DNA of 64,000 bases, from positions 5,263,207 through 5,327,206 of the forward strand of contig OX439036.1 of the NCBI GenBank assembly GCA_949317995.1, given 5' to 3'. A model generated the notes under the pieces. The model was not told where the DNA came from. It did not search any database and saw nothing but the letters and a program-made list of their open reading frames with translations. The position numbers and the translations under genes were made by a program. Below, in pieces: positions 7,425 through 54,784 of the stretch. The first letter of the stretch is position 1. Every line of letters starts with the position of its first letter. The stretch is from Acholoe squamosa. Taxonomy: Eukaryota; Annelida; Polychaeta; Phyllodocida; Polynoidae.

Positions 7425-7754
7425 ATAAATGGGTAGTGTATGCCAACACTGATATTAAATAGTCAATTATCATGCAACCTAAATCCCTACACACAAGGAG
7501 CATCTCATATTCGAGGATAAGCCCCTGATGGACCTATGTAAATAGGAGCAGGAAAAGTAAGGACAGGATTTTCCATAAAATGTCCCCAACATTCCCCTAC
7601 TCCCTTCAAGTAAACTTTAAGGCGTTCCAAGATAGTCAAAGGTTTTTGTTTTTCCAAAACCCATTGATTAGAACAGACGTTATGTCAATTTTCATTTCCC
7701 CTCTCATGTCCACAAGTCAGTTGTATTGAAATAAGCCCTGGTTTCTGCTTAAAT
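7425..7754. other. Unassigned sequence, no gene seen
   Basis: No recognisable feature between the short repeat and the next MITE. Confidence 0.4.
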
Positions 7755-8216
7755 CTTTCAAGGGCCGCTGATGGATTAATGCATCATGACAATTGGTCGT
7801 CATGATGCACCAATGAAGTGCTGGTGAGACTGCTCACCAGCACTTCATTTGAGCATCATGCCAATCCTCTTGGAGTTTGCGTGTCAAACTTGTAGGTTCG
7901 GCAATGCAGGCCTGGCGGGTTACTGGCCAGGGCTACATTCATGCATCATGGCGACTGTAGAGGACGGTGAAAAGATCTAGGATCACTGGGAATCTAACCC
8001 GGATTTCTGGCATGACATTCCAGCATGCTAACCATTACACCAAGATCCCTTGCCTGATATTTCCACCTTCCAACTACACTTGGATCGGTATGATACACAC
8101 AAGGGGAGCAGTGATTACCAGGTATCTGGCCCCTGAGGGTCAATCTACCGGGCACAAGGATTTCTGGTCCCCTACACGACCAATGATGCAATAGTGCTCC
8201 AGTGGCCCTTAAAGGG
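7755..8216. mobile_element. Cloverleaf piggyBac-like MITE, copy 2, with insertion
   Basis: The left end is worn (CAAGGGCCGCTGATGG); the right end AGTGGCCCTTAAAGGG precedes TTAA at 8217-8220. The left arm is the GAAGTGCTGG inverted pair (near 7818 and 7842); the right arm is the GCCTGGCGGGTTACTGGCCAGG type. The element is about 200 bp too long because a tRNA-like segment and flanking DNA (about 7960-8180) sit inside it. Confidence 0.75.
7980..8048 (-). tRNA. tRNA-like sequence (tRNA-Asp-like, probably a pseudogene or SINE head)
   Basis: On the minus strand the segment runs from GGATCTTGG to CAGTGATCC. It has an A-box-like TGGTGTAATGGTTAGCATGC, an anticodon-arm-like CTGGAATGTCATGCCAG whose loop places GTC at the anticodon, and a degenerate B box GGGTTAGATTCCC (consensus GGTTCGANTCC). 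Terminal GGATC pairs with GATCC, but the rest of the acceptor stem mismatches and the length is 69 nt. A tRNA-derived fossil inside the MITE is likelier than a working tRNA gene. Confidence 0.5.
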
Positions 8217-8397: not shown

Positions 8398-8628
8398 GCA
8401 CTGTCAAAAAATGTCTTCGAAACAGTGATGCAATCTGTGTCTCAAAGTTAACAGACATCCATCGTCATTTTTACAAAGCTTCCTCATACACTTGTTCACC
8501 ACCGCCCTGCCACCTGGGGCTTCGAGTAAAAACTACAGTGGCTCAATGCTATACCATGACGGTGGCCTACTGTTCAGTTTTATGAGGATCCCTGGTAGAT
8601 TCAATAGTTATTTTGACAGTGTAACACT
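8398..8628. mobile_element. MITE with CACTGTCAAAA ends (copy 1)
   Basis: About 230 bp, from GCACTGTCAAAAAATG to ATTTTGACAGTGTA, i.e. inverted ends of 12-13 bp. The body matches copies at 15843-16028 and 48362-48597 (AGTTTTATGAGGATCCCTGG, TAGATTCAATAG, CATCGTCATTTTTAC). No coding capacity. Confidence 0.7.
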
Positions 8629-9089: not shown

Positions 9090-10371
9090 TCCGTGACAAC
9101 TCCTATCCGTGGTCCTTGCAACATTTTTCTTGTTTAAATTCATTGTATGATTCTAGATGTGTCATCACTTTTTATGAATCACCCTGCTGATGATAGAAAT
9201 ACCACCTTGTCAGCTTTGTCATAGGGTCTTCACACTGACAACTCTAGGGGCTGTCACTCAAGGCTTGGCCATTAGAACACTCCACTGTCACAAACCAGCC
9301 CTAAACCCGTTTAGAAATGACTCGTCCCTTCTGTATCAGATACCGTAGCATATGTATATTGAAGTAAAATCACTGACTGATTCAATGATTCACTAAAACA
9401 TCGAAAAACTTAAAGTTGACTTGAACTTCAGAATAAATGAATTAGATTGTATATTGGTATCACTCAATATCAGCACAATATGTATATATGAAGGGCATTT
9501 CAATCACCAATAAATACCATCTAATACTGATCACTACAATACATCCCAACTGGTTTATAAATATATTTCATTTTACTCTGATCAATTAGAAGGCCCTAGG
9601 TGGTATTATCAGATGAGATCTCTTTCCAGTGTATGTCATATATAGGCTATATCGATGACAATCCGATCATCAACGATTTATGGCTCATGTCGATACAGTA
9701 TCAGTATCAATAGGTGTCCGTTACCTCTACCTCTATATGGCTGGGTTTCATTTAACATTGCTGGCACTGGTTGATGGCTCTGGTTCATTTAATGGGGCAG
9801 ACATTGCAATTGACAGACAGCTTTGCATATGAGGTTGCCTTAACAGAATTTCCTTTTCTGGAACATGTGAGGCATACATTGACCACATAACTTCACATGA
9901 GGACCACCGTCAGCCGAACAGCATGTGTACACTGTACCCAGCAAATTGTCGTCATCTGTCGCCATGATTGGTCATCAATGGTGATACCTTTTTGAGTGAT
10001 AACTCATTCCGTCATCTTTTGCCACTGTGTGTTAGACTCACGTTGCATAGCAATTGCTATTCCTGGTGATCTTGTGCTATAACGGCGTTGTGTTCCATCT
10101 AACGACATGTGTGAGCCACTTCACACAGGTTGACGAGGACTCACGACAATTTGCTGGGTACAATGCTACACATCAAAGCTTTAATTACATGTATGTACTG
10201 CTCTATAGTGTAATGTCTTTGCCTATGATTGAAACCTTGGTGAATTCTTTACTCTCTAAGGGTTCATCCTCATGTATAAGCTGTGCTCCATATGCTGGAT
10301 ATTACAGGATAAATGTCATTTATCCCTGTGTATTGATACAGTGCAAAGAGTGTCTAAACCCATTAATGTAC
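9090..10371. other. Unassigned sequence, no gene seen
   Basis: No recognised repeat or exon. The 148-codon open frame at 10054-10500 has no family resemblance and runs into a MITE at its 3' end, so it is treated as chance. Confidence 0.4.
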
Positions 10372-10515
10372 GCTAATACAAGAGTGCATCACACCCCTTG
10401 GCTGTCATTAGGGACCAATGAAGTGCTGGCGAATCTGCTCTCCAGCACTTCATTGGAGCATCATGTCAACTCCCTTCATGACAGTATCAACCCTGTATAG
10501 CGTCGGCATGATGCA
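10372..10515. mobile_element. Cloverleaf piggyBac-like MITE, copy 3 (partial)
   Basis: Contains the arm CAATGAAGTGCTGG / CCAGCACTTCATTG and the central repeat around TCAACCCTGTATAGCG then GGCATGATGCA. The terminal CCCTTTAAGG segments are not recognisable. It abuts the 5' side of the LINE. Confidence 0.6.
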
Positions 10516-10610
10516 TTTTCAACATGAGAGACCCTAGAAACCTATGGAACTTACCAGGTCGACTCTAGAGAAATTTTTAATTCCACCACCGGCACGGAGA
10601 GAAGAAATTC

Positions 10611-10622
10611 CAAGATGGCGGC
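10611..10622 (+). promoter_or_regulatory. YY1-like site in the LINE 5' UTR
   Basis: CAAGATGGCGGC matches the YY1 core AANATGGCGGC. Mammalian L1 elements carry a YY1 site near their 5' end that positions transcription start. Here the site lies about 90 bp into the presumed 5' UTR and about 180 bp before ORF1, a fitting place for the LINE's own promoter. Confidence 0.45.
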
Positions 10623-10793
10623 GCCCATGATTCTTCATTACAACGGTCTGTAAACATTGAGCGGACGAGTACACTCGAGCCTCTAAGGAACTAAAGTCTT
10701 ATTACCAAGTGATTATATGATATAGGAAATTGAAACCTATTGACTGTATAAGACATTTAGTAACATTTTGCAACCTCATTTATACGAAAACAA

Positions 10794-12296
10794 ATGCCGA
10801 CGACTAGAAATACGAAACAATCTCCTCACTCGGAGCTAGCTTCCGGCAAATCAAAAACAATGGCTGCCACTTCCGCTATGAACAATAATAATATTTTGCA
10901 ACGCGAAATATCAGATTCTGATGAAGAAAAAGAAGTCTTCTTGCCTCCATTAACCTACAAATCCTCTACAAAAGACATTGTGGATAAAATAAATGAAATT
11001 GATTCACGTCTACAGGTACAGGAATCTATAGCCAAGAGAACGATCAGACTGCTAGGAGGTATGGAGATGAGATTGTTCGGGCCAAATGGATTCCCAAATG
11101 GGAAAACTGTCACTATACCAGAAATTGAGACACGTTTGGATGAACATAGTTCTTCACTATCAATGCACAGTGATAAAATTGAATCAAATACCTCAGCCAT
11201 GACAAAAACCCAATCAGAGATTGATAAACATGAGAATCAATTTGAAAGGTTCGATCTTGAAAGGAAGAGAAGAATACTTGTTCTGGAAGGAATTGATGAA
11301 GACAGACCAGGTAGTCTCCGAGACACCCTTGACCAAATTATCAATGATCTGGGGCTTGATTTCAACAACTCAGTAGCTGAGGCTATATATCGACGAGGTA
11401 AGAAGCATGTACCTACTGCACAACAGAAGCAAAACACTAACTTCAAAAAAAGGAATCGTCCTATAGTAGTTATCTTTTCTTCAGCTCACTATAAAATCCA
11501 GATGTTCTCTAATGTAAAGAGACTACAAGGAAATGCTGCATGGCGTGGACTCCACCTAGCTGATGACATAACCAAGGAAGAAAAACAAATCCAAAATAAC
11601 CTGAGATCAATCCATGCATTGGCACGTGGTAAGGGGGTGGACTGCTCTATTAGAGGAACACAAATCATCATAGAAGGTCAAGCTTACCCATACAAGGAGC
11701 TGGGAAATTTACCCCACGACCTATCCCTCCAAAATGCTAAAACTGTTCAAACCTCAGACGGTATTGCCTTCCAAAGTGAACACTCAGTATTTTCTAACCT
11801 CTACAAGTCTGAAATAAAATTCGAAGGCCACACATATGACTCTGTTGAACGAGCATACCAAGCTAAAATGTGTGTAGTGTCCAACCAAGTTCATATCCTA
11901 AGGAAGGTAAATTCTGCAGCCACACCAATTGATAGCATGTTTGCTGGACGTGCATGTAAGAAAACCAATGACTGGTACGACATAGACGAGACTGTGATGC
12001 AGAAGCTGCTGGAGATCAAGTTCAATGACCCACCACTACTACACCATCTAATCCAGACCAAGGGCAAGTACCTGTATGAAGCTACACGACATCGTACATA
12101 TGGGGCTGGATTCCATCTTGGACAGAAAAAGGACATTAATATCAGAAATGTTGCCCATAATCAATACGAATGTGCCAACAAATTGGGAGAATTTCTGATG
12201 AAGATAAGATATAGACACACAGGTGAACAACCCCTCCCAACTGCTGAGGAAATTTGTCTTCAAGATGCAGCAAACCAGCAGCAAAATAATCCCTAA
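10794..12296 (+). CDS. LINE ORF1 protein with C-terminal NADAR domain
   Basis: 500 residues. Residues 1-55 are polar and low in complexity. Residues about 56-155 are heptad-like and likely coiled coil. Residues about 158-305 resemble the RRM plus C-terminal core of L1-type ORF1p (RRILVLEG, EAIYRRGKK, RPIVVIF, ADDITKEE), which binds RNA as a chaperone. Residues about 323-473 match the NADAR/YbiA pattern in order: FSNLYKSEIKFEGHTYDS, VERAYQAKM, FAGRACKKTNDW, VMQKLLEIKF, RTYGAGFHLG, NKLGEFLMKIR. NADAR proteins act on ADP-ribose or ribosyl N-glycosidic bonds, and some remove ADP-ribose from guanine in nucleic acids. Differences from common NADAR text are R for H after the E in VER and Y for W in the TYGAG segment. 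The ATG at 10794 follows ACAA, a fair context, and precedes all domains. A role in reversing host ADP-ribosylation is an inference. Confidence 0.85.
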   Translation: MPTTRNTKQSPHSELASGKSKTMAATSAMNNNNILQREISDSDEEKEVFLPPLTYKSSTKDIVDKINEIDSRLQVQESIAKRTIRLLGGMEMRLFGPNGFPNGKTVTIPEIETRLDEHSSSLSMHSDKIESNTSAMTKTQSEIDKHENQFERFDLERKRRILVLEGIDEDRPGSLRDTLDQIINDLGLDFNNSVAEAIYRRGKKHVPTAQQKQNTNFKKRNRPIVVIFSSAHYKIQMFSNVKRLQGNAAWRGLHLADDITKEEKQIQNNLRSIHALARGKGVDCSIRGTQIIIEGQAYPYKELGNLPHDLSLQNAKTVQTSDGIAFQSEHSVFSNLYKSEIKFEGHTYDSVERAYQAKMCVVSNQVHILRKVNSAATPIDSMFAGRACKKTNDWYDIDETVMQKLLEIKFNDPPLLHHLIQTKGKYLYEATRHRTYGAGFHLGQKKDINIRNVAHNQYECANKLGEFLMKIRYRHTGEQPLPTAEEICLQDAANQQQNNP

Positions 12297-12533: not shown

Positions 12534-15404
12534 ATGTATTATACAAATATAAAGAAACTAGAAGACTCCAAAGGTCTACGTATTCTGCACCTAAATGCAA
12601 GAAGTATCAAAGCCAAGTATGCATCTATTTGTGCTGAAATCTACCCATCCAACCTTGAAATTTTTACGTTCTCTGAGACATGGTTCAAATGTGAAGATGA
12701 TGAATCTAACTATCAATTCTATGGATATACTAGATATAGATTAGATAGGCAAGTTCTCGATAATAAAGGAAAAATTAAAACAGGGGGGGGTATATGTATT
12801 TATGTAAAACATGGTATCAAACATGATATTCAGAAATATGAATATCTAAACAAATCTGATGGTACAATTGAAATCCAATGTATATGCTTACTTAAAGACC
12901 ACATGAAACCAATTTTATTACTTAATGTATATAGACCACCGGACGGTGACAAAAATTTATTTGTTAACGTCCTATCGGACATACTCTCGAATTTAGAAAA
13001 TACAAACACATTCGAAATTATAGCCCTAGGGGATTTCAATTTTAATATAAATGAGGATACAGATATAGTTAATAATTTATTAAATAGAATGAAACACTTT
13101 GGATTGAACCAAGAAATTAAAGATGCTACAAGGAAAAAGGCAACACTTGACTTAATATTTACAAACCTCAGACCAAATCTTATTGTATCAGGTATATGTA
13201 ACAACTATATCTCTGACCATCTCCCAATATTCTTAATAAGGAAAAAAATGAAAAATATACAAGAAAAGGTATATATAACAGGTCGTTCTTATTCAAAGCT
13301 ATCCGATGAAATCCTTTTAACTGAATTTGATAAAGTAAACTGGGACAACTTTAATAATTCAACAGATGTCAATTACTCATGGTCACTGCTCGAATCAGCC
13401 ATACGTGGCATTCTTGATAAATTTTGTCCGGTACATAAATTTCTTGTGCATAGATATAGAGACCCATGGATGTCCCAAAATGTTTATGAAATCATAAGGG
13501 AAAAAAACAGAAAACTATGGAAAGCCAGACGTTCTAATAAAGAAGAAGACTGGGAGAGCTCGAGAGTTTTTAGGAATAATGCAAATAAGGTAATAGATAA
13601 AGCTAGAAAAAATTTCTTTAAAGAACAACTTGAAAATCAAAAAAATGACCATAGAAAATTCTGGAGAGTCATTAATAATTTGATACCAGGACACCCTTAT
13701 CGTGCGAAAGATATTTCATTAATTGATCACGATAATAACAATATGCCTATTGAGAAAAAAGAAGTTCCTGCTTTTATAAATCAATATTTTGCAAATATTG
13801 GACCTACTCTTGCCAAGGATCTATATTTACCATGGAAACCCTATGATGAATATGTTGTAAACAAAATGGATCCGATTGTTACGAATTTGCAAGAGGTTAG
13901 GAAACTAGTTCATGATATTAATGTTAACAAATCCTCAGCAATTTCAGATATATCTACCAGGGTATTAAAGAAAATTTTCATTCATGCTCCAGACAAACTT
14001 GTCAAAATATTTAATCTGTCGTTTTCCACTAATACAGTACCAGATGACTGGAAACTCTCGAAGGTAACCCCAATACCTAAAGCTGGTAATGATAAATTGG
14101 TGAATAACTACCGCCCAATATCACTTTTACCCCTGCCATGTAAATTGATAGAAAAAATTGTGCACAATAGAGTGTATGGTTTCTTAGTCAAAGAAAAAAT
14201 ATTAACACCCCATCAGGGAGGATTCAGATCAGGTTTTAGTACAATAGACACACTGGCAAAATTTACAGATGATATTAAAAGAAATCTAAATGTGGGTTAC
14301 TCTACTATAGCTGCCTTTATAGACTTAAGAAAAGCTTTCGACACGGTTGATCATTCTGTATTACTAATAAAATTAAATCACTACGGTATAAGATCTGACA
14401 ATTACCATTGGTTCAAAAACTACCTTACAAACAGACACCAAATAACAATAGCAAATGGTTTAACGTCTGGAAAAAATCAAGTACTGTGTGGTGTTCCCCA
14501 GGGGTCCATTTTGGGCCCTCTATTGTTCCTGATATATGTGAATGATGTAATAAATTGTGTAAAAAATTGTAATATTAAACTGTATGCTGATGATACTGTT
14601 ATATATTCAGCGCATCGCTCATATATATCTGCAAAAATTGATCTTCAACATGATCTTGAGATGTATGAAACTTGGTGTATTCAAAACAAATTATCTATTA
14701 ATGTGACTAAAACCAAGGTAATGATTTTCTCCTCAAGTACAAAAAAACTCAATACACTAACAGCTGATATACACCTAGGTGATCAACTATTGCAAGTAGT
14801 ACCTAGCTATAAATACCTTGGTGTTACCCTAGACCCTTTACTGTATTATAATCTACATCTGGCTAACCAAATAAAGACTATTGCATACAAAACCTATAAG
14901 CTATGTCAACTAAGAAGATATCTTGATGTAAAACTAGCTTTAAGAATTTATAAAGCTACTATCCTCCCGTATATTGAATATGCTGATATCTGTTTTGCCA
15001 CCACATTTGATAAATATCTGGATCCTCTGCAATATGCACAGAACCGCTGTATAAAAATATGTCTGGGTGTGCCCCATTTGACTAACACTAACTACATACA
15101 TAATGTAACAAAAATTAACAAGATTGGTGATAGAAGACATATCCACATATTAAATTACATGTATAATAGAGCACAAGATGATAAATATAAAGACAATAGG
15201 AGAATTGTTACTCGATTACATGATGCACCCACCTTGAAGATTATAACCCCAAATGGTATGGCATATGCTAGGAGCGTAGAATACTACGGAGCCTTAATCT
15301 GGAATGCTTTACCTACTGAGAGGAGACTTGCTGTAAACTTAAAACAATTCAAAATTGAATCCAAAAAATCATTAAAGTCTCTTATCCCGTATGTAAATGC
15401 ATAG
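12534..15404 (+). CDS. LINE ORF2 protein: APE-type endonuclease and reverse transcriptase
   Basis: 956 residues. The endonuclease spans about 15-235, with LNARS (20-24), SETW with catalytic E48, NVYRPP (131-136), GDFN (D167, N169), DLIFTN (D206) and SDH (227-229). The reverse transcriptase spans about 505-770, with NNYRPISLLP (524-533), FIDLRKAFD (catalytic D597), GVPQGSILGP (653-662) and YADD (D686, D687), then SYKYLGV. The C-terminal region ends with the RSVEYYGALIWNALP block (913-927) typical of CR1/L2-group proteins. It nicks target DNA and primes reverse transcription of the LINE RNA. Length is normal for the group and no damage is visible. It lies in the same frame number as ORF1 but is separated by stops and 237 bp, so reinitiation or a separate message is needed. 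The start at 12534 is the first ATG before the endonuclease. Confidence 0.95.
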   Translation: MYYTNIKKLEDSKGLRILHLNARSIKAKYASICAEIYPSNLEIFTFSETWFKCEDDESNYQFYGYTRYRLDRQVLDNKGKIKTGGGICIYVKHGIKHDIQKYEYLNKSDGTIEIQCICLLKDHMKPILLLNVYRPPDGDKNLFVNVLSDILSNLENTNTFEIIALGDFNFNINEDTDIVNNLLNRMKHFGLNQEIKDATRKKATLDLIFTNLRPNLIVSGICNNYISDHLPIFLIRKKMKNIQEKVYITGRSYSKLSDEILLTEFDKVNWDNFNNSTDVNYSWSLLESAIRGILDKFCPVHKFLVHRYRDPWMSQNVYEIIREKNRKLWKARRSNKEEDWESSRVFRNNANKVIDKARKNFFKEQLENQKNDHRKFWRVINNLIPGHPYRAKDISLIDHDNNNMPIEKKEVPAFINQYFANIGPTLAKDLYLPWKPYDEYVVNKMDPIVTNLQEVRKLVHDINVNKSSAISDISTRVLKKIFIHAPDKLVKIFNLSFSTNTVPDDWKLSKVTPIPKAGNDKLVNNYRPISLLPLPCKLIEKIVHNRVYGFLVKEKILTPHQGGFRSGFSTIDTLAKFTDDIKRNLNVGYSTIAAFIDLRKAFDTVDHSVLLIKLNHYGIRSDNYHWFKNYLTNRHQITIANGLTSGKNQVLCGVPQGSILGPLLFLIYVNDVINCVKNCNIKLYADDTVIYSAHRSYISAKIDLQHDLEMYETWCIQNKLSINVTKTKVMIFSSSTKKLNTLTADIHLGDQLLQVVPSYKYLGVTLDPLLYYNLHLANQIKTIAYKTYKLCQLRRYLDVKLALRIYKATILPYIEYADICFATTFDKYLDPLQYAQNRCIKICLGVPHLTNTNYIHNVTKINKIGDRRHIHILNYMYNRAQDDKYKDNRRIVTRLHDAPTLKIITPNGMAYARSVEYYGALIWNALPTERRLAVNLKQFKIESKKSLKSLIPYVNA

Positions 15405-15842
15405 TATATCTTGAAAATCTAAAAAATAATATTAAGCTTGTTGTTGATTTCTTTCCTTTATTTTCAACCAGTTTCCAATGTGTGACATGGATTACTGAAT
15501 TATCTCTATGACTCCATCAATGTATATTATATTATTACTTTATTAAAATACGTGCCAAAGTTTTCGTACATATTTTGGGAAGATAGGTAGGACCAGAATT
15601 ATCAACCTAACACTGTTATAGTGGGGATGAGGTCCTCTACCTTCTGTTTGACTTATGCTATCGTCCGTAATACATGGAAACTATATGCATTTATTTAAGA
15701 AAACATTGTATATCCATGTTAAACTAGGATGTTTCAAACATATATGACATATCATCTTGTATACCTCGATCTCTGTACTGTTATTAAAACTATGCTCGAT
15801 ATGTAATAAGTCAATAAAGTAAATTCAAACCAAAAAAAAAAA

Positions 15843-19994: not shown

Positions 19995-20770
19995 TTAATA
20001 AAACCTGTTTTCTTGTTTCCCCCAAGCTGCATGATAATCCAATCGCAGCTCCTCTTAAAACATTTTCATCAAACAAAGTATTAATCTCAGTTTTCTTCAT
20101 CGCAGAAACAAAACCTCATCTTTAAGAGACAGTTTTTCTTGAGTTTCTTTTCTTACACCTTACTCATCTTGCACTGGAACTGGCCACTATTTTTCCACAA
20201 GCAAAGGAAATCTGTAATCATTTAAGAAATTAATCTTTGATTTTTAAATCAGCCTATTTGCGCAACTCAGGAGTTACCATCTTTTTTTTAATATTTTATA
20301 AGGCTCTTTGCATTTTTTGTCTCTTTCCTGATCTGATCTTAATAAAAGAAATTCTGGTAATTTTCTGGAGTAACAGTTGAGAAGTGAGACTGTGACATGC
20401 TTTCTTAGGAAATGCCATGATTAATTTATTCTATAGATTCTACCAAGGAATTCACTTTTGAATCAAATACAAAGGCAGCACATATTGAAATACAAATGTT
20501 ATACAGTGCCAAACAATAGCTAAGCGATGAATCACAATTGGCCTCCTTCATAGCAAAAAACATACTTTTCACATGCGATAGATAAATGTGAACATGTAGA
20601 AGAGTGGCTCAGGAGGATTCAATACAAAAGGCAATACAATAGGTAGTACAAGAGTTAAACAATAGGTGATTCATATGTTAAAACACTAGGGGTTACAGAC
20701 GGTCTTGCAGTAAGTAGTGTGATTAGTGATATGGGAGTAGGGAGGAAGGTTGCACTAGAAAAAAGAAAAT
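19995..20770. other. Unassigned AT-rich sequence
   Basis: AT-rich with no exon or element recognised. It may be the remains of an older LINE insertion, given the LINE tail that follows, but no ORF2 similarity is visible. Confidence 0.4.
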
Positions 20771-20796
20771 GAAGTAAATTCAAACCAAAAAAAAAA
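20771..20796 (+). mobile_element. LINE 3' tail, extremely short copy
   Basis: AAGTAAATTCAAACC followed by a run of A is identical to the last bases of the full-length LINE at 15818-15842. Upstream sequence does not match that LINE, so this is either a severely 5'-truncated insertion or a diverged relative. It directly abuts the right half of a cloverleaf MITE. Confidence 0.55.
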
Positions 20797-20895
20797 TTCA
20801 TGCAGCCCTGGCAAGCCATTTGCCAGTGCTGCATTCATGCATCATGATGACCTATTGGAATGATGCATTCATGCATCAGCCACCTTTAAAGATTT
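20797..20895. mobile_element. Cloverleaf piggyBac-like MITE, copy 8 (right half)
   Basis: Begins inside the arm (TTCATGCAGCCCTGG / CCAGTGCTGCATTCATG) and runs through GATGCATTCATGCATCAGCC to CACCTTTAAAG. The left half is missing beyond the LINE tail. Confidence 0.7.
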
Positions 20896-21741
20896 GCAGA
20901 CAGTGTCTGGTATCACCATGGTCTGTTTTGTCTCACATTATGATGATCTATGATGACCCCTATACTCCATAGTCCGCTTTGTATCTGGTTATTGTCATTG
21001 TAAAATGGGAAATTGAAAATGATTGCTCAAATGAAATTTGGCCTACACCTTTGCCCTCGATCTTGAATATCTGTCGTAAGTGTCTCGCCCCATATACCAT
21101 CCCACTGCCACTTCTGTACCTGCCTATGGTTAGAAAGGTCTTGTCGAAATAGGGGACAAATTTTCTTTTCTGTCTTGCCTTTTTAATGATGCCAAAAGGT
21201 AGTCAGGAAGAAAGGCATGAGAAAGTTGCAATCTGGGTGATTGTCGGCAAATTAGTCTATTTTCTATAAAGCTGGGTGGCTCTTGTCTTTAATCAGGTAC
21301 GTGCAAGTCGAAGTTGAAGGTTACGGTTCAAGCAAAATGAACCTGAGATTTTTAGGATGTAGGGGAACATGCAACAATCACGTCACTGCTTAGGGGGTGG
21401 GAGGGGGGTCTTTGGGTTCGGGTGAAAACCTTCTATGTTCTATACAAACACAGTTACAAGGCGGTGGGTAGGTCCTAAAAAATGAAAAAAAAAACAGTGA
21501 CATAATTGTTGAATGTTCACTAGTACACCTTATAACATTTCAGCAAGAACCTTCAGGTGCCTTTTTTGCAAGTCTGTTCTATAGTTGATTTACTCCTTGT
21601 CACTGCCCACTATGGTATTAACATTGCTTTCTATTTCCCTAGCCCCGCGACTCTTACTGCCATGCTCAATTTCCCTAACGCATGCTCTCACCAACCCATG
21701 TTCTCACTACCCAATAAAGAGGAAGTCTGTTCTGCTTAAAA
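20896..21741. other. Unassigned sequence, no gene seen
   Basis: No recognised repeat. A G-rich run lies near 21390-21410. Confidence 0.4.
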
Positions 21742-26503: not shown

Positions 26504-27762
26504 TAAAAGGCCCCTGAAGTGATAAATCTTGAGACACATTGAAATGTGAATTTGAAACATCTTCTGGGATTTAACTGAATGTCATCATTTGCCTTCATTG
26601 CAAGTGCATGTAGCAAGGATGAGCACCAAGCGCTGATGACCGAAGAGAACGGAAATTGGCCCGGAAGTGCGTCCGCTCTAGTGCAGACACAAACCAGCGT
26701 ACCTTTTGTAGCACCATGCACTTATGTGTGTATGTGAGTGTGTGTCTGTGTGTGTGTTTGGAGCCTAGATGAGTGGAAATAGGGCAATGTAGTTATTATA
26801 GTCTGTTTTTGTCTTCTTAGCATCTGGCACAGAAGCGATCATAAAACAGTAAGCAGGATATTTGAACTACTTAAAATTGACTCCAGGCTTAGTTTCAACG
26901 CACAACTTGATGATTTAAATATTAGATTGACTTGGAAATGCTAATATCACTACCTACACACCTTAGGTGAGTTTCTGCCTTTCATCAGGTAAAACAATTT
27001 GGTATCTCCGTCTTTGCCTGTTTTAGCACAGGATCTCAAATTAACGCGGGTGTTGTTTTAGCCACAAGTTAGAAGTAGGTTTTGAGATCTAACTTTCCAC
27101 TTTTATGGTTTGAATAAGTGCAGCTCTCATTAGTGCAGGGGGAATCCTACTTTTTAATATAACACTACAGGCATGCTAAAATTGGCCACTGTGGTACACA
27201 CACCTGTCATAAGAGGCTATTCCACTGCCATTGGTCAGCAGAAAATTTGCTTAACAGATTTCTTTTATACTTTTGTCTTATCAGAAATAATTGGATAAGG
27301 AAAGATTTGACCGACCGATAGCAGTTAAGCACTTGCTACAGGGTGCTATTGTGGACATCTCATGCAGTTACTTTCTTGAATTGAAAGACACAGACATGAT
27401 CTCATGTACAGCAATATGCTCTAGATAGCTGTTACTAACTGAAAACAGAAACCCACCACCCTCAGTTTGCCCTGCCCCCCCCCCAAAAAAAAAAAAGAAA
27501 AGAAGGATCAAAGGAAAGAAAAACGAAATGTAGGCTTAGTCAAAGGGAAAATAGATACTCAATTGGAAAAGAAACTATAACCTCCCCAAATAACTGCACA
27601 GTCCCTTTCGCCCACAGCTCACAAACATAGTGTAGTTCATCCATTAAGGAAGAGAACACGGTGCTCCCCCTGTTGGCATAGACAGTACCTACCCCTGCTG
27701 TCACACGACAATTTAGACCAACCCCCCCACCCCTCACTGCCTTTTTCCCACCAATAACAGCT
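26504..27762. other. Unassigned sequence with a TG-rich tract
   Basis: A TG-rich microsatellite at about 26727-26760 and an A-rich run at 27484-27500 were seen. No gene or element recognised. Confidence 0.4.
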
Positions 27763-28127
27763 GGAGGGTGTTGCTCCTATTGTAAAAAGAGCTGTGAGTA
27801 TGTGCCCTCTTTTCTAAACAAGTCGTGCACTGCTTCACCTAAGTACTTGCACTCACCACATTAGTCTGAAAAGTCACCTGCCTTGTTTAAAATAGAGAGA
27901 GCTGCACTACCAGGTACCTACTCATGTCACACGCTCTATAGTTTGTTATTCTGACTGACTTCTCCCAACTAGGTACCTACTCAAATCCCCCTTTTTCAGC
28001 ACCGTACTTGAATGACCACTTGTGAGCAACAAAATGGACAAGTTATAGCTACATGAAAAGAAAGGACTGGAAATGAGGGCATTTTTAGCCAGCTCTTCCT
28101 TTTACTATAGGAGCAACACCCTCCAGG
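27763..28127 (+). mobile_element. MITE, GGAGGGTGTTGCTCC-end family (copy 2)
   Basis: About 360 bp with clean inverted ends: CTGGAGGGTGTTGCTCCTAT and ATAGGAGCAACACCCTCCAG. The body is nearly identical to 45450-45816, suggesting recent spread. Confidence 0.85.
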
Positions 28128-28730
28128 CGTTACTCCCTTCTCTCACCTTGTAAGACATTCCACGATCAGTGGATTAGGTGCAAGGCTTTGTACTGCAAGA
28201 CGTCAAGTAGGCACACAATAGATGTCTTTATTAAATGCTTTTCAAAACAGAAATGCCATTAGGGTGAATACCTTAATCAACTTAAAGATTTAAGTTTGGT
28301 GGTAAAGAGAAAAATAAAGGCCTTCTAACCTTCCATGTTCAAACATTGGGCTAAATACTTCACACAGGAGACAAAATTTGTCTGCAGGCTACGTATGAAT
28401 GGCAAAAAAGACAGTCCCTACATATTTCCTTGCCTCCTTAACTCTATAGTGAGAATAATTTGAGCTTCCCTGGCCCTACGCCTATGACTATTGCGCTGTG
28501 ATTGATCCATTACTGGGTAGACTACCTTTACTTAGGTGCAATTCATTAGCGCTCATTGATTGTGTGTTCTTTTTCCTCCCCTCATCCCTCAATGGGTGAC
28601 AGGTACCTGGGCAACAGGCGCAATGGTGATCAGGTAGAGGCGGGACTACTAACTGTGATGTAAGCAGATATGGAGGGACCTTTTTACTGCCAGTTACTAT
28701 ACATTTTACTACTTATTACTAGTACTCACC
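28128..28730. other. Unassigned sequence with one splice-like block
   Basis: The pyrimidine-rich stretch before GGGTGACAG near 28603 and a following 31-nt block ending before GTAGAG would suit a microexon, but the block is too short to judge. No other feature. Confidence 0.3.
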
Positions 28731-44325: not shown

Positions 44326-44582
44326 GCTCTGTCATCTTAATAATGACCTTGTTGAGTTGAGTATTGCGGGTGGCTCCAGGTATCGGTGGCAGAGGTATCT
44401 AATTATTGAAATAGCTCTGGTCAGTCGTTGACAGGCGGAAGGAGGGACATTGACCACACACATTGAGTGGCTCCTCAATCGCCTTTCAAGTGGTCGGTCT
44501 TTTCAAAATGTCTTAAAAGGAGAGGGTGATGCAGGAGGTTGAAGAGGTTCTTGTGTGTGGGAAGGAGGCTGGAGGGGGTTAA

Positions 44583-44836
44583 CCCTTTAAGAGCCGCAGA
44601 TGCATTAATACATCATGCCCATTGGTCGTCATGATGCATGGATGTAGCCCTGGTGAGTCACTCACCAGGGCTACATCCATGCATCATGCAGATCCAAAGG
44701 GATTGATACACATACTCCGGGAGGGTCGGCATGATGCATCAATGAAGTGCTGCCGAGCAGTCTCACCATCACTTCATTGGTGCATCATGACAACCAATGG
44801 GCATGATGCATTAAGGCATCAGCGGCCCCTAAAGGG
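44583..44836. mobile_element. Cloverleaf piggyBac-like MITE, copy 17 (type copy)
   Basis: 254 bp between TTAA at 44579-44582 and 44837-44840. From left: terminal CCCTTTAAGAGCCGCAGATG and CCATTGGTCGTCATGATGCA; arm A GATGTAGCCCTGGTGAG / CTCACCAGGGCTACATC; centre GATCCAAAGGG..GGGAGGGTCGGCATGAT; arm B CAATGAAGTGCTG / TCACTTCATTG; and right terminal CATCAGCGGCCCCTAAAGGG. Each arm is an inverted repeat, and the whole is also one. Confidence 0.9.
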
Positions 44837-44840
44837 TTAA

Positions 44841-45244
44841 GGTGGTGGATTCAGCTACTGGAGTGGTAGGAATAGGGTTAGTACAGTGGCTGGGGAGTGA
44901 AAGGGTGATCAGTTAACCATTTGGGGGGGGGGTGCGTGTGTACCTATTGATGTTGCCTTATTGCTTCAGCCTCATTGGGCACCAGGAATTGGTTAACAGG
45001 GGGGGGGAGTAGCTTCAAAAGGAACGGGTTGTATCCCCTACATAGAATATAGAAAATAAGGAGGGGCGCGCCCCTTGTATACCAGTCTGAATCTGCATTA
45101 GGACAAACAGGGTGCTTTGTTCCTGGTAATACATAGTGGACTAGTAGCTTAGTATTATTGATAGGAATGAGTGTATTCATGAGACATTTATTTCAAACAT
45201 GAAGGGGCCTATTATCAGGGTGCCTTCATTCCATAGGGCCTCAA
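44841..45244. other. Unassigned sequence with G runs
   Basis: G runs at 44923-44934 and 44999-45008. No gene seen. Confidence 0.4.
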
Positions 45245-45401: not shown

Positions 45402-45857
45402 TACCACTCTGTACATGGTGATGGTAGCACATCCAGCACCCCACCACTCCCCTGGAGGGTGTTGTTCCTATTGTAAAAAGAGCTGTGTGTATGTGCCCTC
45501 TTTTCTAAACAAGTCGTGCACTTCTTCACCTAAGTACTTGCACTCACCACATCAGTCTGAAAAGTCACCTGCCTTGTTTAAAATAGAGAGAGCTGCACTA
45601 CCAGGTACCTACTCATGTCACACGCTCTATAGTTTATTATACTGACTGACTTCTCCCAACTAGGTACCTACTCAAATCCCCCTTTTTAAGCACCATACTT
45701 GAATGACCACTTGTGAGCAACAAAAGGGACAAATTATAGCTACATGGAAAGTAAGGACTGGAAACAAGGGCATTTTTAGCCAGCTCTTCCTTTTACTATA
45801 GGAGCAACACCCTCCTGTACCACTCTGTACATGGTGATGGTAGCACATCCAGCACCC
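45402..45857. repeat. 40-bp direct repeats flanking a MITE
   Basis: TACCACTCTGTACATGGTGA plus the next 20 bp (45402-45441) is repeated at 45818-45857, directly after the MITE's right end. This is too long for an ordinary target duplication, so a tandem duplication carrying the MITE is favoured. Confidence 0.8.
45451..45816 (+). mobile_element. MITE, GGAGGGTGTTGCTCC-end family (copy 4)
   Basis: Nearly identical to 27763-28127 over its length; ends CCTGGAGGGTGTTGTTCCTA and ATAGGAGCAACACCCTCC. No coding capacity. Confidence 0.85.
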
Positions 45858-45966
45858 AACCAACCCCCTGAGGCCTCAATGTCTGGCTGCCCACTGCTCC
45901 CCAGGGTACTACCAGGGTAGCAGGAGTGCTCTGTGATTTGGAGCCATTACGACCTCAACAGATCCA

Positions 45967-46322
45967 GGAGAGTGTTGCTCCTATTGAAAAAAGGTAGTAC
46001 TGGCTAAAAAGGCCCTCATTCCCAGTACTTTCCTTTTCATGAAGCTATAATCTGTCTCTTGTGTTGCTCACAAGTGGTCATTCAAGTATGGTGCTAAAAA
46101 AGTGGGATTTGGTTAGGTACCTAGTCAGTCAGTATAATATACTATAGAGTGTGTGACATGAGTAGGTACCTGATAGTGCAGCTCTCTCTTTTTTAAACAA
46201 GGCGGGTGACGTTTCAGATTATGTGGTGAGTGCAAGACGAATGGTGAATGAAGAGCATGACCTTTTTTGAAAAGAGGGTACCTACTGAGAGCTCATTTTA
46301 GTATGGGAGCAACACCCTCCTG
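45967..46322 (-). mobile_element. MITE, GGAGGGTGTTGCTCC-end family (copy 5, inverted)
   Basis: Opposite orientation to the copy 150 bp away: CAGGAGAGTGTTGCTCCTAT at left, GGGAGCAACACCCTCCTG at right, internal CATGAGTAGGTACCTG and ACAAGTGGTCATTCAAG. Confidence 0.8.
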
Positions 46323-48361: not shown

Positions 48362-48597
48362 ACCTAAGATTAATTTCAATACCGCTGTTCCTCTGGCTCT
48401 CGTATTCCTCATCCAAACGTTGCCAGAGATCTGAGGTTATTTTCACAAAGATCCCTTGTCCATTTGTGTACCACCATACTGCCAACTGAGGCTTCCTGTA
48501 AAAGCTAAACTGGTAAGTGCTTCCCAATAACAATGGCCCACTGGTAAGTTTTACAAGGACCCCTGGTAGATTCAACAGCTATTTTTGACAGTGCAGA
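48362..48597. mobile_element. MITE with CACTGTCAAAA ends (copy 3)
   Basis: The body GTTGCCAGAGATCTGAGG, CCATTTGTGTACCACC and CCCCTGGTAGATTCAACAGC and the right end TATTTTTGACAGTG match the other two copies; the left end is worn. Confidence 0.65.
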
Positions 48598-49382: not shown

Positions 49383-49610
49383 GGGGCACATCATGCCCGT
49401 TGGCCGTCACGATGCACCAATGAAGTGCTGGTGAGACTGCTTGCCATCACCTCATTGGAGCATCATGTCGACTCACTAGGATTGCATCAACCCCTTACAG
49501 ATGGCATGATGCATGAATGTAGCCCTAGCGAGTTACTCACCAGGGCTACATTCATGCATCATTCTGACCTGCATCATTGATGTAAGAATGTATCAACAGC
49601 CGTCTTAAAG
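49383..49610. mobile_element. Cloverleaf piggyBac-like MITE, copy 18
   Basis: Arm B at left (CAATGAAGTGCTGGTGAG / CTTGCCATCACCTCATTG), centre CATGTCGACTCACTAGG, arm A at right (GAATGTAGCCCTAGCGAG / CTCACCAGGGCTACATTC). The arm order is reversed relative to copy 17. Confidence 0.8.
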
Positions 49611-49923
49611 GTTATTCTGCATATGGACTGTATAGTGCACAGACCTGAAACACAGATCTCAGGTACTCTCCACCAACCCAGGGATCATGTATGGCAGAGG
49701 GGAGCAATGGATAGCCTATCTAATATTTAATTGTCATTCACACATATAAGTGCTCCCCCTTGGCTCTCAATATAGACTTGCGCCATAGGCCTATATATGT
49801 GTAATACTGGACTAGATATGTGCATATATAATAATGGAATATGTGCATCTTTATAGCTCCATGAATGACTGATATATGTTACGTTATATCAGTGCATATA
49901 TAGATGACAATCAGCTAAAATAA

Positions 49924-50168
49924 CCATTTAAAGGCTGCTGATGTATTGATGTGTCATGCACATTGGTCGCCATGATACAATAATACAGCCCTGGGGAGTT
50001 ACTTGCCAGGGCTGTATTTATGCATCATTTATAACGACCCTTCATGGTGGATACTGTCCCGGAGGGTCGGCATGATGTTCCAATGAAGTGCTCGCGAGTA
50101 GACTTCATTGGTGCTTCTTGACGAGTAATTGCCGTGATGCATAAATGTATCGGCGACCCTTAAAGGGT
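49924..50168. mobile_element. Cloverleaf piggyBac-like MITE, copy 19
   Basis: Ends CATTTAAAGGCTGCTGATG and CGGCGACCCTTAAAGGGTT; arm A at left (TACAGCCCTGG / CCAGGGCTGTA), centre CGACCCTTCATGG..CCGGAGGGTCGGC, arm B remnant at right. Confidence 0.8.
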
Positions 50169-50326
50169 TGACTGATGATTGACAGTCCACTGTGTACCTA
50201 TATTCTGATGTTCGGTGTAAAGTTGATGTGGTTTTAATGCCCACTTTTCTATAATGTAAATGGTATATATGTGGGAACAGCCATCATGAATCACTTCCCG
50301 CTAGATTAATTCTGCAAAAATGCCTT

Positions 50327-50892
50327 TCACCTTTCAAGGGTTGATGATGTGTGAGCATGTCATGACCATTGATTGCCATGACGCACGCCATGATAAGTAA
50401 CTTGCCATGGATGCATTCAGCCATCATGCCAATCACCATGGATGCATTCAGCCATCATGCCAATCACCATGGATGCATTCAGCCATCATGCCAATCGCCA
50501 TGGATGCATTCAGCCATCATAACATTCACCATGGATGCATTCAGCCATCATGCCAATCACCATGGATGTATTCAGCCATCATGCCAATCACCATGGATGC
50601 ATTCAGCCATCATAACATTCACCATGGATGCATTCAGCCATCATGCCAATCACCATGGATGCATTCAGCCATCATGCCAATCACCATGGATGCATTCAGC
50701 CATCATGCCAATCACCATGGATGCATTCAACCATCATGCCGACCCTATAGGGTTGAGACACTCCCATGGGGGCTCTATGATACTCCAATGAAGTGCTGGT
50801 GAGCAGTTTTGCCGGCACTTCATTGGTGCATGATACCGATCATACCGGGCCACAATGTACTCCTGCATCAGTGCTCCTTGAAGGGCTAGTCT
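50327..50892. mobile_element. Cloverleaf MITE, copy 20, expanded by a 31-bp array
   Basis: The left end CACCTTTCAAGGGTTGATG and the right end ATCAGTGCTCCTTGAAGGG bracket an element about 300 bp longer than normal. Arm B (CAATGAAGTGCTGG / CCGGCACTTCATTGGTG) is intact near 50786-50828. Confidence 0.75.
50405..50745. repeat. 31-bp tandem array, 11 units, inside a MITE
   Basis: CCATGGATGCATTCAGCCAT plus CATGCCAATCA repeats with CCATGG at 50405, 50436 and so on to 50715 (ten exact 31-bp steps). Unit words match the arm-to-centre part of the MITE (ATGCATTCA, ATCATGCC). Confidence 0.95.
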
Positions 50893-51784: not shown

Positions 51785-52597
51785 TGCTTTAAGGGCCGCT
51801 GATGCATTGATGCATCCTTCCTATTCGTTATCATGATGCATGAATGCATCCCTGCTGACTACTCACCAGGGCTGCATTCATACATCAAACAGATCCTACT
51901 AGGCTAGCTACTCCACTATGCTGAACTATGGACATGACATACTCCAGCATTTTCAGCCCTTAAATATTTAAAATGGAGCTTTAATACATTGAGCCAAATG
52001 CTGCCATGATGCATGAATGCAGCCATGGTAACTCCACTTTCCAGGGCTGCATTCATGCTGACCCTAAAGGGCTGATACACTCCCAGAGGGTCATCATGAT
52101 ACACCAATGAACCAGCACTGCATTGGTGCATCATGCTTTACCAGCACTGCATTGGTGCATCATGATGTACCAGCACTGCATTGGTGCATCATGATGTACC
52201 AGCACTGCATTGGTGCATCATGCTTTACCAGCACTGCATCGGTGCATCATGATGTACCAGCACTGCATTGGTGCATCATGCTTTACCAGCACTGCATCGG
52301 TGCATCATGATGTACCAGCACTGCATTGGTGCATCATGCTTTACTAGCACTGCATCGGTGCATCATGACGTACCAGTACTGCATTGGTGCATCATGATGT
52401 ACCAGCACTGCATTGGTGCATCATGATGTACCGGCACTGGATTGGTGCATCATGCTGACCCTATAGGGCTGATACACTCTCATAGGTCATCATGATGCAC
52501 CCCCAATCATATGCTGCTCCTAGCAATCCCTTTATTCATGTGTCATGGCGGCCAACTGATGCGTTCTTGTGGGTACCATACAGGCTGCAAAGGGTTG
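51785..52597. mobile_element. Cloverleaf MITE, copy 21, expanded by a 29-bp array
   Basis: TTAA at 51781-51784, then GCTTTAAGGGCCGCTGATGC. Two arm-A-like pairs are present (near 51845-51885 and 52010-52055), so this may be two nested or fused copies. The right side (CATCATGCTGACCCTATAGG, then CAGGCTGCAAAGGGTTGATG) follows the array. Confidence 0.65.
52111..52458. repeat. 29-bp tandem array, 12 units, inside a MITE
   Basis: ACCAGCACTGCATTGGTGCA followed by TCATGATGT repeats at 52111, 52140, 52169 and so on to 52430, an exact 29-bp step. The unit is the outer arm-B segment of the MITE (CCAGCACTTCATTGGTGCAT). Variants such as GCATCGG and GCTTTAC alternate, suggesting unit-pair duplication. Confidence 0.95.
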
Positions 52598-54054: not shown

Positions 54055-54396
54055 AGCTTAAAAATGCCTGCATAGACTTGGGCAATATGGCACTATGGAA
54101 CAGTGATATTTATCTAAACTGGCCAGCTGCACTAGTGAAAAGATGTGTTACTATGTTCTAAGGAAATAACCGATGTTAGGTGATGTTGGAGGGGTTGTCA
54201 TTGTGATGTTTACAGGGCTGTTATGGGGTGTTATGACGTCCATGTTGGTTTTCTATCATGGCGGCTTATGGCGGGATATCCTGCTGATGGCCAGCATACC
54301 CTGAGGTATTACACAGTAATTATTGGGAATATCTACAAACAGTGTGTAGTGTGATCACCAGGGGTGTGTATGGGGGGAGGGTGAGGGGGACTTTAA

Positions 54397-54653
54397 CCCT
54401 TTAAGGGCTACTGATGCATTAATGCATCATGCCAGTTGGTTCTCCTGATGCACCAATGAAGTACTGCCGAGACTACTAGCCAGCACTTCAATGGAACAAC
54501 ATGCTGACTCTACGGGGTTGAAACATATATAGTCCCTGAGGGTTGGCATGATGCTCAAATAAAGTGCTGGTGAGCAGTCTCACCAGCACATCATTGGTTC
54601 ATCGTGACGACGAATGGGCATAATGCATCAATGCATCAGCGGCCATTAAAGGT
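54397..54653. mobile_element. Cloverleaf piggyBac-like MITE, copy 22 (two B arms)
   Basis: 257 bp between TTAA at 54393-54396 and 54654-54657. Termini CCCTTTAAGGGCTACTGATG and CATCAGCGGCCATTAAAGG. Left arm CAATGAAGTACTGCCGAG / CCAGCACTTCAATGG and right arm AAATAAAGTGCTGGTGAG / CTCACCAGCACATCATT are both type B. Confidence 0.9.
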
Positions 54654-54784
54654 TTAAGCACTTAACCCCAAATCAGGTCTGAGCAACTGGGGGGGGGGGA
54701 GAGAAGACGCCCTGTTTTGAGAAGTGCGGGGACGCCTGCATCACACCCTCCCCCCTCCACTACCCCCTACCACGGTTTCACCAA

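Follow-up and report, generated by a model that had tools for sequence, protein, structure and literature searches.

NADAR domains have been reported in retrotransposons. A Repbase query located them in ORF1 of several Crassostrea gigas Tx1 LINE families, the Pol protein of an Ectocarpus Gypsy element carries one, and RNA processing has been suggested as the role of retrotransposon NADARs (PMC12477816, Genome Biology 2025). Virus-derived RNA helicase domains have also been gained by LINEs, in Jockey ORF1 and in TRAS ORF2 (PMC5563155). The domains named in a survey of Jockey-superfamily ORF1s are CC, RRM, CTD, CCHC, PHD, esterase, and zinc finger/leucine zipper (PMC4120745), and the word NADAR is absent from the main text of that survey, as it is from the main text of one bivalve (PMC10294476) and one gastropod (PMC11203168) LINE paper. 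A literature search for NADAR together with LINE and ORF1, with Repbase entries and preprints outside its range, returned PMC12477816 as the sole paper on transposable elements. Searches that combined DUF1768 with retrotransposon, or that used the three reverse transcriptase motif strings of the ORF2 described below, returned no papers. From these searches we do not claim that no Jockey-group LINE with such a fusion has been published.

The locus described here lies within a 64-kb stretch of Acholoe squamosa DNA, the whole of which is referred to as the window. There, a LINE with an open ORF2 was confirmed to encode a NADAR-fold domain in frame, on the C-terminal side of its ORF1 (Table 1). 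The C. gigas Tx1 LINEs likewise have an ORF1 with a YbiA-family NADAR (PMC12477816). They probably differ in LINE type from the present element, the ORF2 of which has GVPQGSILGPLLF and WNALP and no CCHC pattern. The Ectocarpus case is likewise one of recruitment by a retrotransposon, but that element is an LTR element and its NADAR is in Pol rather than ORF1 (PMC12477816). The helicase-bearing Jockey and TRAS LINEs share the gain of an extra enzymatic domain and a parallel in RNA viruses, whereas the domain and its activity are different (PMC5563155).

Table 1. Features of the LINE and of its NADAR domain, in window coordinates. Fractions are members with the stated residue in a bacterial set of 34 NADARs and in a set of 133 NADARs that come mostly from viral contigs.
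Feature	Position	Strand	Remarks
Probable LINE 5' end and 5' UTR	10517..10793	+	5' boundary approximate
ORF1	10794..12296	+	500 aa, ATG 10794 to stop 12296, no internal stop
Long predicted helices, coiled-coil-like, ORF1 residues 59-166	10968..11291	+	AlphaFold2 full-length model
Presumed RRM and CTD-like nucleic-acid-binding core, residues 167-305	11292..11708	+	pattern only
NADAR domain, ORF1 residues 328-473	11775..12212	+	Pfam PF08719; Foldseek to 8bau, 2b3w
E352 (E43 equivalent, distal ribose)	11847..11849	+	E in 34/34 and 133/133
K358-M359, M at the place of the conserved lysine (K50)	11865..11870	+	K or R in 34/34; K in 133/133 (biased count)
D398 at the place of pyrophosphate-binding R93 (W+4)	11985..11987	+	K or R in 31/34 and 130/133
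E429 (E125 equivalent, YbiA-family glutamate)	12078..12080	+	E in 31/34 and 126/133
Diverged active-site loop with insertion, residues 433-459	12090..12170	+	without D/N-x2-W; pLDDT <50
ORF2	12534..15404	+	956 aa, open
ORF2 endonuclease	~12591-13232	+	Pfam Exo_endo_phos_2 E 2.9e-6, Exo_endo_phos E 8.2e-5
ORF2 reverse transcriptase	~14073-14831	+	Pfam RVT_1 E 4.9e-40
3' UTR	15405..15831	+	AATAAA at 15813-15818
Poly(A) run of 11	15832..15842	+	treated as the insertion's 3' end

The element looks like a complete non-LTR retrotransposon with two ORFs and a poly(A) tail, and it probably belongs to the Jockey/CR1/L2 group. It has the two ORFs, the endonuclease and reverse transcriptase in ORF2, and the poly(A) 3' end of a LINE. 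Its completeness is suggested by the order of its parts: after ORF1 come a spacer of 237 bases, an open ORF2, an AATAAA signal, and a run of A. In the 5' flank a dispersed repeat, with a second copy at 49389-49514, stops near 10516, and from ~15849 the 3' flank matches a dispersed repeat that is also present at 8432-8613 and 48406-48584. Thus, the LINE sits between other repeats. A comparison of 9801-10790 with the region after the poly(A) run, made with the 5' end not fixed, gave no candidate target-site duplication: exact matches did not exceed 8 nt, and near matches of 12 to 18 nt were not found. Target-site duplications are variable in this LINE group and are often short or absent. Within the 5' UTR, CAAGATGGCGGC at 10611-10622 resembles the YY1-site motif of the human L1 5' end and may be an internal promoter element.

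The type of LINE was judged from ORF2. Tx1 belongs to the L1 superfamily, the marks of which are an RQGCPLSPLLF-type reverse transcriptase motif, the human L1 version of which is visible in the phmmer alignment with ORF2, and a C-terminal CCHC in ORF2. At the place of that motif this ORF2 has GVPQGSILGPLLF (residue 653), followed by YADD at 684 and WNALP at 923, and a motif search of ORF2 gave no CCHC pattern. We take this combination to be of the Jockey/CR1/L2 type and not of the L1/Tx1 type. In phmmer comparisons ORF2 was distant from both R2 (7.8e-14) and human L1 (2.3e-11). The original prediction had called ORF2 CR1/L2-type, and by these motifs it does read as CR1/L2/Jockey-like. It had also stated that no standard LINE clade defined by a NADAR was known. 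That statement is partly overtaken by the NADARs reported in ORF1 of oyster Tx1 LINEs (PMC12477816), though the ORF2 motifs here are not those of Tx1. Because those motifs are of the Jockey/CR1 type, the element probably represents a further LINE group with a NADAR fusion.

Several methods agreed on the identity of the domain. An intact ORF1 with a NADAR at about residues 323-473 had been proposed, and the 500-residue open frame bears this out: residues 328-473 matched PF08719 with an E value of 2.6e-15 and 57.5 bits, above the gathering score of 35.1, and the match covered positions 8-160 of the 163 in the profile. The NCBIfam model TIGR02464 matched with E 2.7e-14, but at 53.7 bits, below its cut-off of 73.7. 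The PHROGs family phrog_1017, to which that library gives no function, matched residues 320-478 (E 1.8e-22), and the PADLOC model PDC-M42C matched residues 328-473 (E 2.2e-7). In a phmmer search of the PDB, YbiA (2b3w) was found with E 1.4e-4 and the P. nicotianae NADAR (8bau) with E 0.035. An AlphaFold2 model of residues 311-484, built with 50 relatives, had a mean pLDDT of 80.6, with values of at least 90 in 113 of 174 residues; ten-residue blocks of the core had pLDDT values of 86 to 98, and the loop 433-459 fell below 50. When this model was compared with the PDB library of 350,542 chains in Foldseek, the sole matches at E ≤0.001 were 8bau (E 2.3e-6) and 2b3w (E 1.1e-5), the next match having an E value of 3.5. 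The predicted structure is thus like YbiA, as had been expected. Among the best 50 of 135 matches to viral predicted structures, 46 had E ≤0.001, and those with names included phage and giant-virus NADARs, an Ingleside virus RdRp, and pieces of the yellow head virus polyprotein.

The identity of the LINE domain to its 50 aligned relatives is low, at 28-37%, and this, together with the TIGR02464 score below the cut-off, is what could be said for a chance resemblance or a false profile match. However, four profile libraries, phmmer, and Foldseek all point to NADAR, and the Pfam match covers nearly the whole profile. The NADAR match is not chance; that explanation, which we regard as exceedingly improbable, was ruled out by the combination of Pfam, NCBIfam, PHROGs, PADLOC, phmmer, and Foldseek.

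The rest of ORF1 was less distinct. The full-length AlphaFold2 model had a mean pLDDT of 67.0 and a pTM of 0.42. It has a low-confidence N-terminus (residues 3-57), helices at 59-87 and 108-166, a stretch with pLDDT <50 (residues 202-254), a unit of one helix (248-279) and three strands (284-299), and a helix C-terminal to the NADAR domain, in which the loop 433-459 was again of low confidence. The long modelled helices would fit the coiled coil that had been predicted upstream of the NADAR. The L1-type RNA-binding core predicted between these helices and the NADAR was not borne out: no L1 ORF1p match was found in Pfam (E ≤1), in PDB phmmer with residues 141-315 (E ≤10), or in Foldseek with the full-length model, and the model is poor there. 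Mitochondrial ferritin also came up for residues 141-315 in PDB phmmer (best E 0.28), which we attribute to chance. A putative coiled coil ahead of a presumed nucleic-acid-binding core, in an element of Jockey-superfamily type, is a likeness to the type II (L1-like) ORF1s of CR1 and L2 elements (PMC4120745). Those ORF1s consist of a coiled coil, an RRM, and a CTD (transposase 22), whereas here the helices are modelled and the core is without a Pfam, PDB, or Foldseek match. An RNA-binding core in ORF1 is plausible from the sequence pattern.

Residues that contact ADP-ribose in the P. nicotianae NADAR include E43, K50, G78, R79, W89, R93, E125, D130, and W133, and mutagenesis of the E. coli C7 NADAR supports a role for E88, K95, and D171, which are the equivalents of E43, K50, and E125 (PMC11543638). 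In the same study efficient hydrolysis needed the conserved lysine (K50/K95), E88A had merely a minor effect in vitro, and the E43 and K50 equivalents were largely conserved across the NADAR superfamily (PMC11543638). A last-strand glutamate, and not D or H, is the mark of the YbiA family (PMC11125620). When these positions were mapped onto the LINE domain, with the P. nicotianae contacts Y84, D86, and V81 omitted from the mapping, E43 corresponded to E352, G78 to G385, R79 to R386, W89 to W394, and E125 to E429. E429 is thus the glutamate that identifies the YbiA family. Of the E43/K50 pair found in catalytic NADARs, the glutamate is present as E352, and the lysine place is occupied by M359. 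N462, G465, and R472 are also kept. The retention of these three residues and of E352, E429, W394, G385, and R386 despite the low identity to the aligned relatives suggests that the fold core outlasted a long divergence.

Two sets of NADARs served for the residue counts, both of them phage and bacterial, with LINE and other eukaryotic NADARs outside the sample. The larger set drew on 80 loci retained out of 267 that were confirmed, on 80 retained out of another 271, and on 2 further ones; three loci that were too short were dropped, and removal of exact duplicates reduced 159 sequences to 133. The 34 bacterial NADARs came from profile or protein searches in which the residues at issue were not fixed, and represent 40 loci minus duplicates and short pieces. 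They were the best-scoring loci, so that canonical members are favoured. The D/N-x2-W motif is absent from the LINE domain and present in 34/34 bacterial NADARs and in 132/133 of the larger set, the latter count being biased, like that for the lysine, because the search patterns for the larger set included EHAYQAAK and E[LEG]NTWGD. Other positions vary more among the bacterial NADARs: the K75 place, M382 in the LINE domain, has K in 13/34, and the retained G385 and R386 are each matched by only 17/34. In the loop, where two alignments differ, the D130 region corresponds to R434-T435 or to a gap, and the W133 place to Y436 or A438. A salt bridge may have been swapped here, to judge from the opposite charges at position 398 and near 434, subject to this uncertain alignment.

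In the set of 133 NADARs, 24 columns are conserved at ≥95%; the LINE domain agrees with 16 of them and departs from 8, among these the lysine, D, and W positions, and other members lose at most 5. In the bacterial set of 34, where 18 columns reach a conservation of ≥90%, the LINE domain has 13 of these and lacks 5 (the H353, K359, D433-region, W436, and G460 positions), and other members lose at most 4. Overall, the LINE domain is only slightly more divergent than the most divergent bacterial NADARs. The pattern of kept and lost columns indicates that the fold core and the ribose-facing carboxylates were retained and that the phosphate-facing side changed. Put in terms of solved structures, the fold and the two ribose-contacting glutamates are common to YbiA (2b3w), the P. 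nicotianae NADAR (8bau), and the LINE domain, whereas the phosphate-binding residues and the D-x2-W loop differ. As judged from the alignments, the pocket is either rewired or decayed. An ordinary NADAR hydrolase, as the original prediction had it, is made less likely: E352 and E429 are kept, but the lysine, the basic W+4 residue, and the D/N-x2-W motif are changed.

The reading that we prefer, at somewhat less than an even chance, is that ORF1 carries an RNP-bound ribosyl hydrolase, or eraser of ADP-ribosyl marks, with changed specificity; we infer all steps beyond the predicted fold and residues. ORF1p would multimerise via its coiled coil on the LINE RNA, so that the multimer would display many NADAR domains on the particle. 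The substrates of these domains could be (ADP-)ribosyl-guanine or ribosyl N-glycosides related to it, whether part of the LINE RNA, of the nascent cDNA, or of small molecules nearby, and the domains would remove marks placed by host ADP-ribosyltransferases, with the ribose chemistry done by E352 and E429. The rewired phosphate-binding side (lysine shifted by one, R to D, and possibly D to R) suggests a changed rather than a standard substrate. A hydrolase is favoured by the NADAR profile and fold matches, by the kept core residues, and by the fact that both ORFs are open. It is also favoured by the occurrence of NADARs in RNA-virus polymerase polyproteins (Ingleside virus RdRp and yellow head virus). 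RNA-virus NADARs have been argued to target host ADP-ribosylation of macromolecules (PMC9503650). Guanine ADP-ribosylation is reversed by NADARs, including an oomycete member unlinked to DarT, and a guanine-modifying transferase from clam, CARP-1, appears as a reference entry in the same paper (PMC11543638).

Hydrolase activity is made less certain by the lysine off its place, the acidic W+4 residue, and the loss of D/N-x2-W in a low-confidence loop, by the finding of a single LINE copy, and by the R/D swap resting on a loop that was aligned in two ways. Closely behind it, and a quite credible alternative, is a pseudoenzyme in which catalysis was lost and the NADAR fold was retained for binding, whether of a partner protein, of ADP-ribose, or of nucleic acid, and might, for instance, serve to localise the RNP. 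D398 at W+4 would be consistent with this, as would the losses of conserved columns, which exceed those of every other member in both sets, including the less biased one. However, in that less biased set the excess is small (5 versus 4), and in the larger set the next most divergent members (L007 and L008, with 5 and 4 columns lost) are sequences that were fetched without the biased patterns. The comparison is also one with phage and bacterial NADARs, so that LINE and other eukaryotic members are not represented in it. Furthermore, both ribose-contacting glutamates are kept, including the one that defines the subfamily. Another possibility is that a host or viral NADAR was joined to one LINE copy as a one-off chimera that founded no lasting family. 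The single copy within the 64-kb window and the lack of a confirmed relative in the viral-contig scans would fit such an event, as would the third-position GC, which is 0.41 in the NADAR part, 0.34-0.35 in the rest of ORF1, and 0.30 in the last 20 codons. Overall GC, in contrast, is similar across the three main parts of ORF1 (0.39, 0.41, and 0.42), and the domain is in frame, has diverged far from the sampled NADARs, and is followed by an ordinary spacer and ORF2. Several oyster Tx1 families are also reported with a NADAR-bearing ORF1 (PMC12477816), and we consider a one-off chimera improbable.

The hydrolase reading can be extended to a Jockey/CR1-group LINE clade in which a NADAR in the RNP, with altered specificity, would strip LINE RNA or cDNA of an ADP-ribosyl mark set by the host, and which would have gained the domain separately from the Tx1 and Gypsy cases. 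We regard this fuller version as unlikely, if less so than the chimera. If it is true, the LINE NADAR would be the retrotransposon counterpart of viral macrodomains, and hosts would mark retroelement nucleic acids by ADP-ribosylation. If LINEs of different superfamilies, Gypsy elements, and RNA viruses all took up NADAR, this would point to a host activity directed at RNA-based parasites, possibly ADP-ribosylation. The altered pocket also makes this domain a possible example of a shift in NADAR substrate specificity.

Searches for relatives did not place the origin of the domain. Scans of viral contigs with ORF1, ORF2, the reverse transcriptase core, and a two-sequence NADAR alignment gave no confirmed relative of the LINE, in scans seeded by a few exact or nearly exact peptides that distant copies would escape. 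The same NADAR alignment gave 94 pattern matches in genome contigs, from which 2 bacterial NADARs were obtained. Matches of ORF1 to phages (best 20 of 184 records) and to plasmids (11 of 11 records) were NADARs that matched the C-terminal part only, and none covered 80% of ORF1. ORF2 matched one phage record at E ≤1e-3 (E 5e-6, 24% identity) and one plasmid record at E ≤1e-10 (E 7e-17, 26% identity). The plasmid match, at 20406-21611 of the Alicyclobacillus record NZ_CP104070.1, has no listed gene and is perhaps a bacterial reverse transcriptase. When the LINE domain was put in a tree together with 99 NADARs from viral contigs and 34 from bacteria, its branch was very long (2.53) and sat on nodes with support of 0.0 and 0.16. 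A branch of this length on such poorly supported nodes leaves the origin unplaced.

Elsewhere in the window, ten ORFs outside the LINE, among 35 stop-to-stop ORFs of at least 95 aa, had no Pfam match at E 0.01. A tRNA-Asp (GTC) was found by ARAGORN and Rfam at 7978-8049 on the minus strand, and is either a gene or a tRNA-derived repeat. A dispersed family of ~200-300 bases has copies at 44552-44843, 54365-54660, 49921-50169, and 7748-7955, some pairs of which match in both orientations and are thus foldback-like. Tandem arrays with 31- and 29-base units lie at 50405-50740 and 52107-52454, respectively, and parts of the 29-base array match a dispersed repeat in the 5' flank of the LINE. A repeat of ~365 bases occurs at 27761-28128, 45452-45817, 484-837, and 45964-46322, and because two of its copies are 96% identical, it is perhaps a recently active element.
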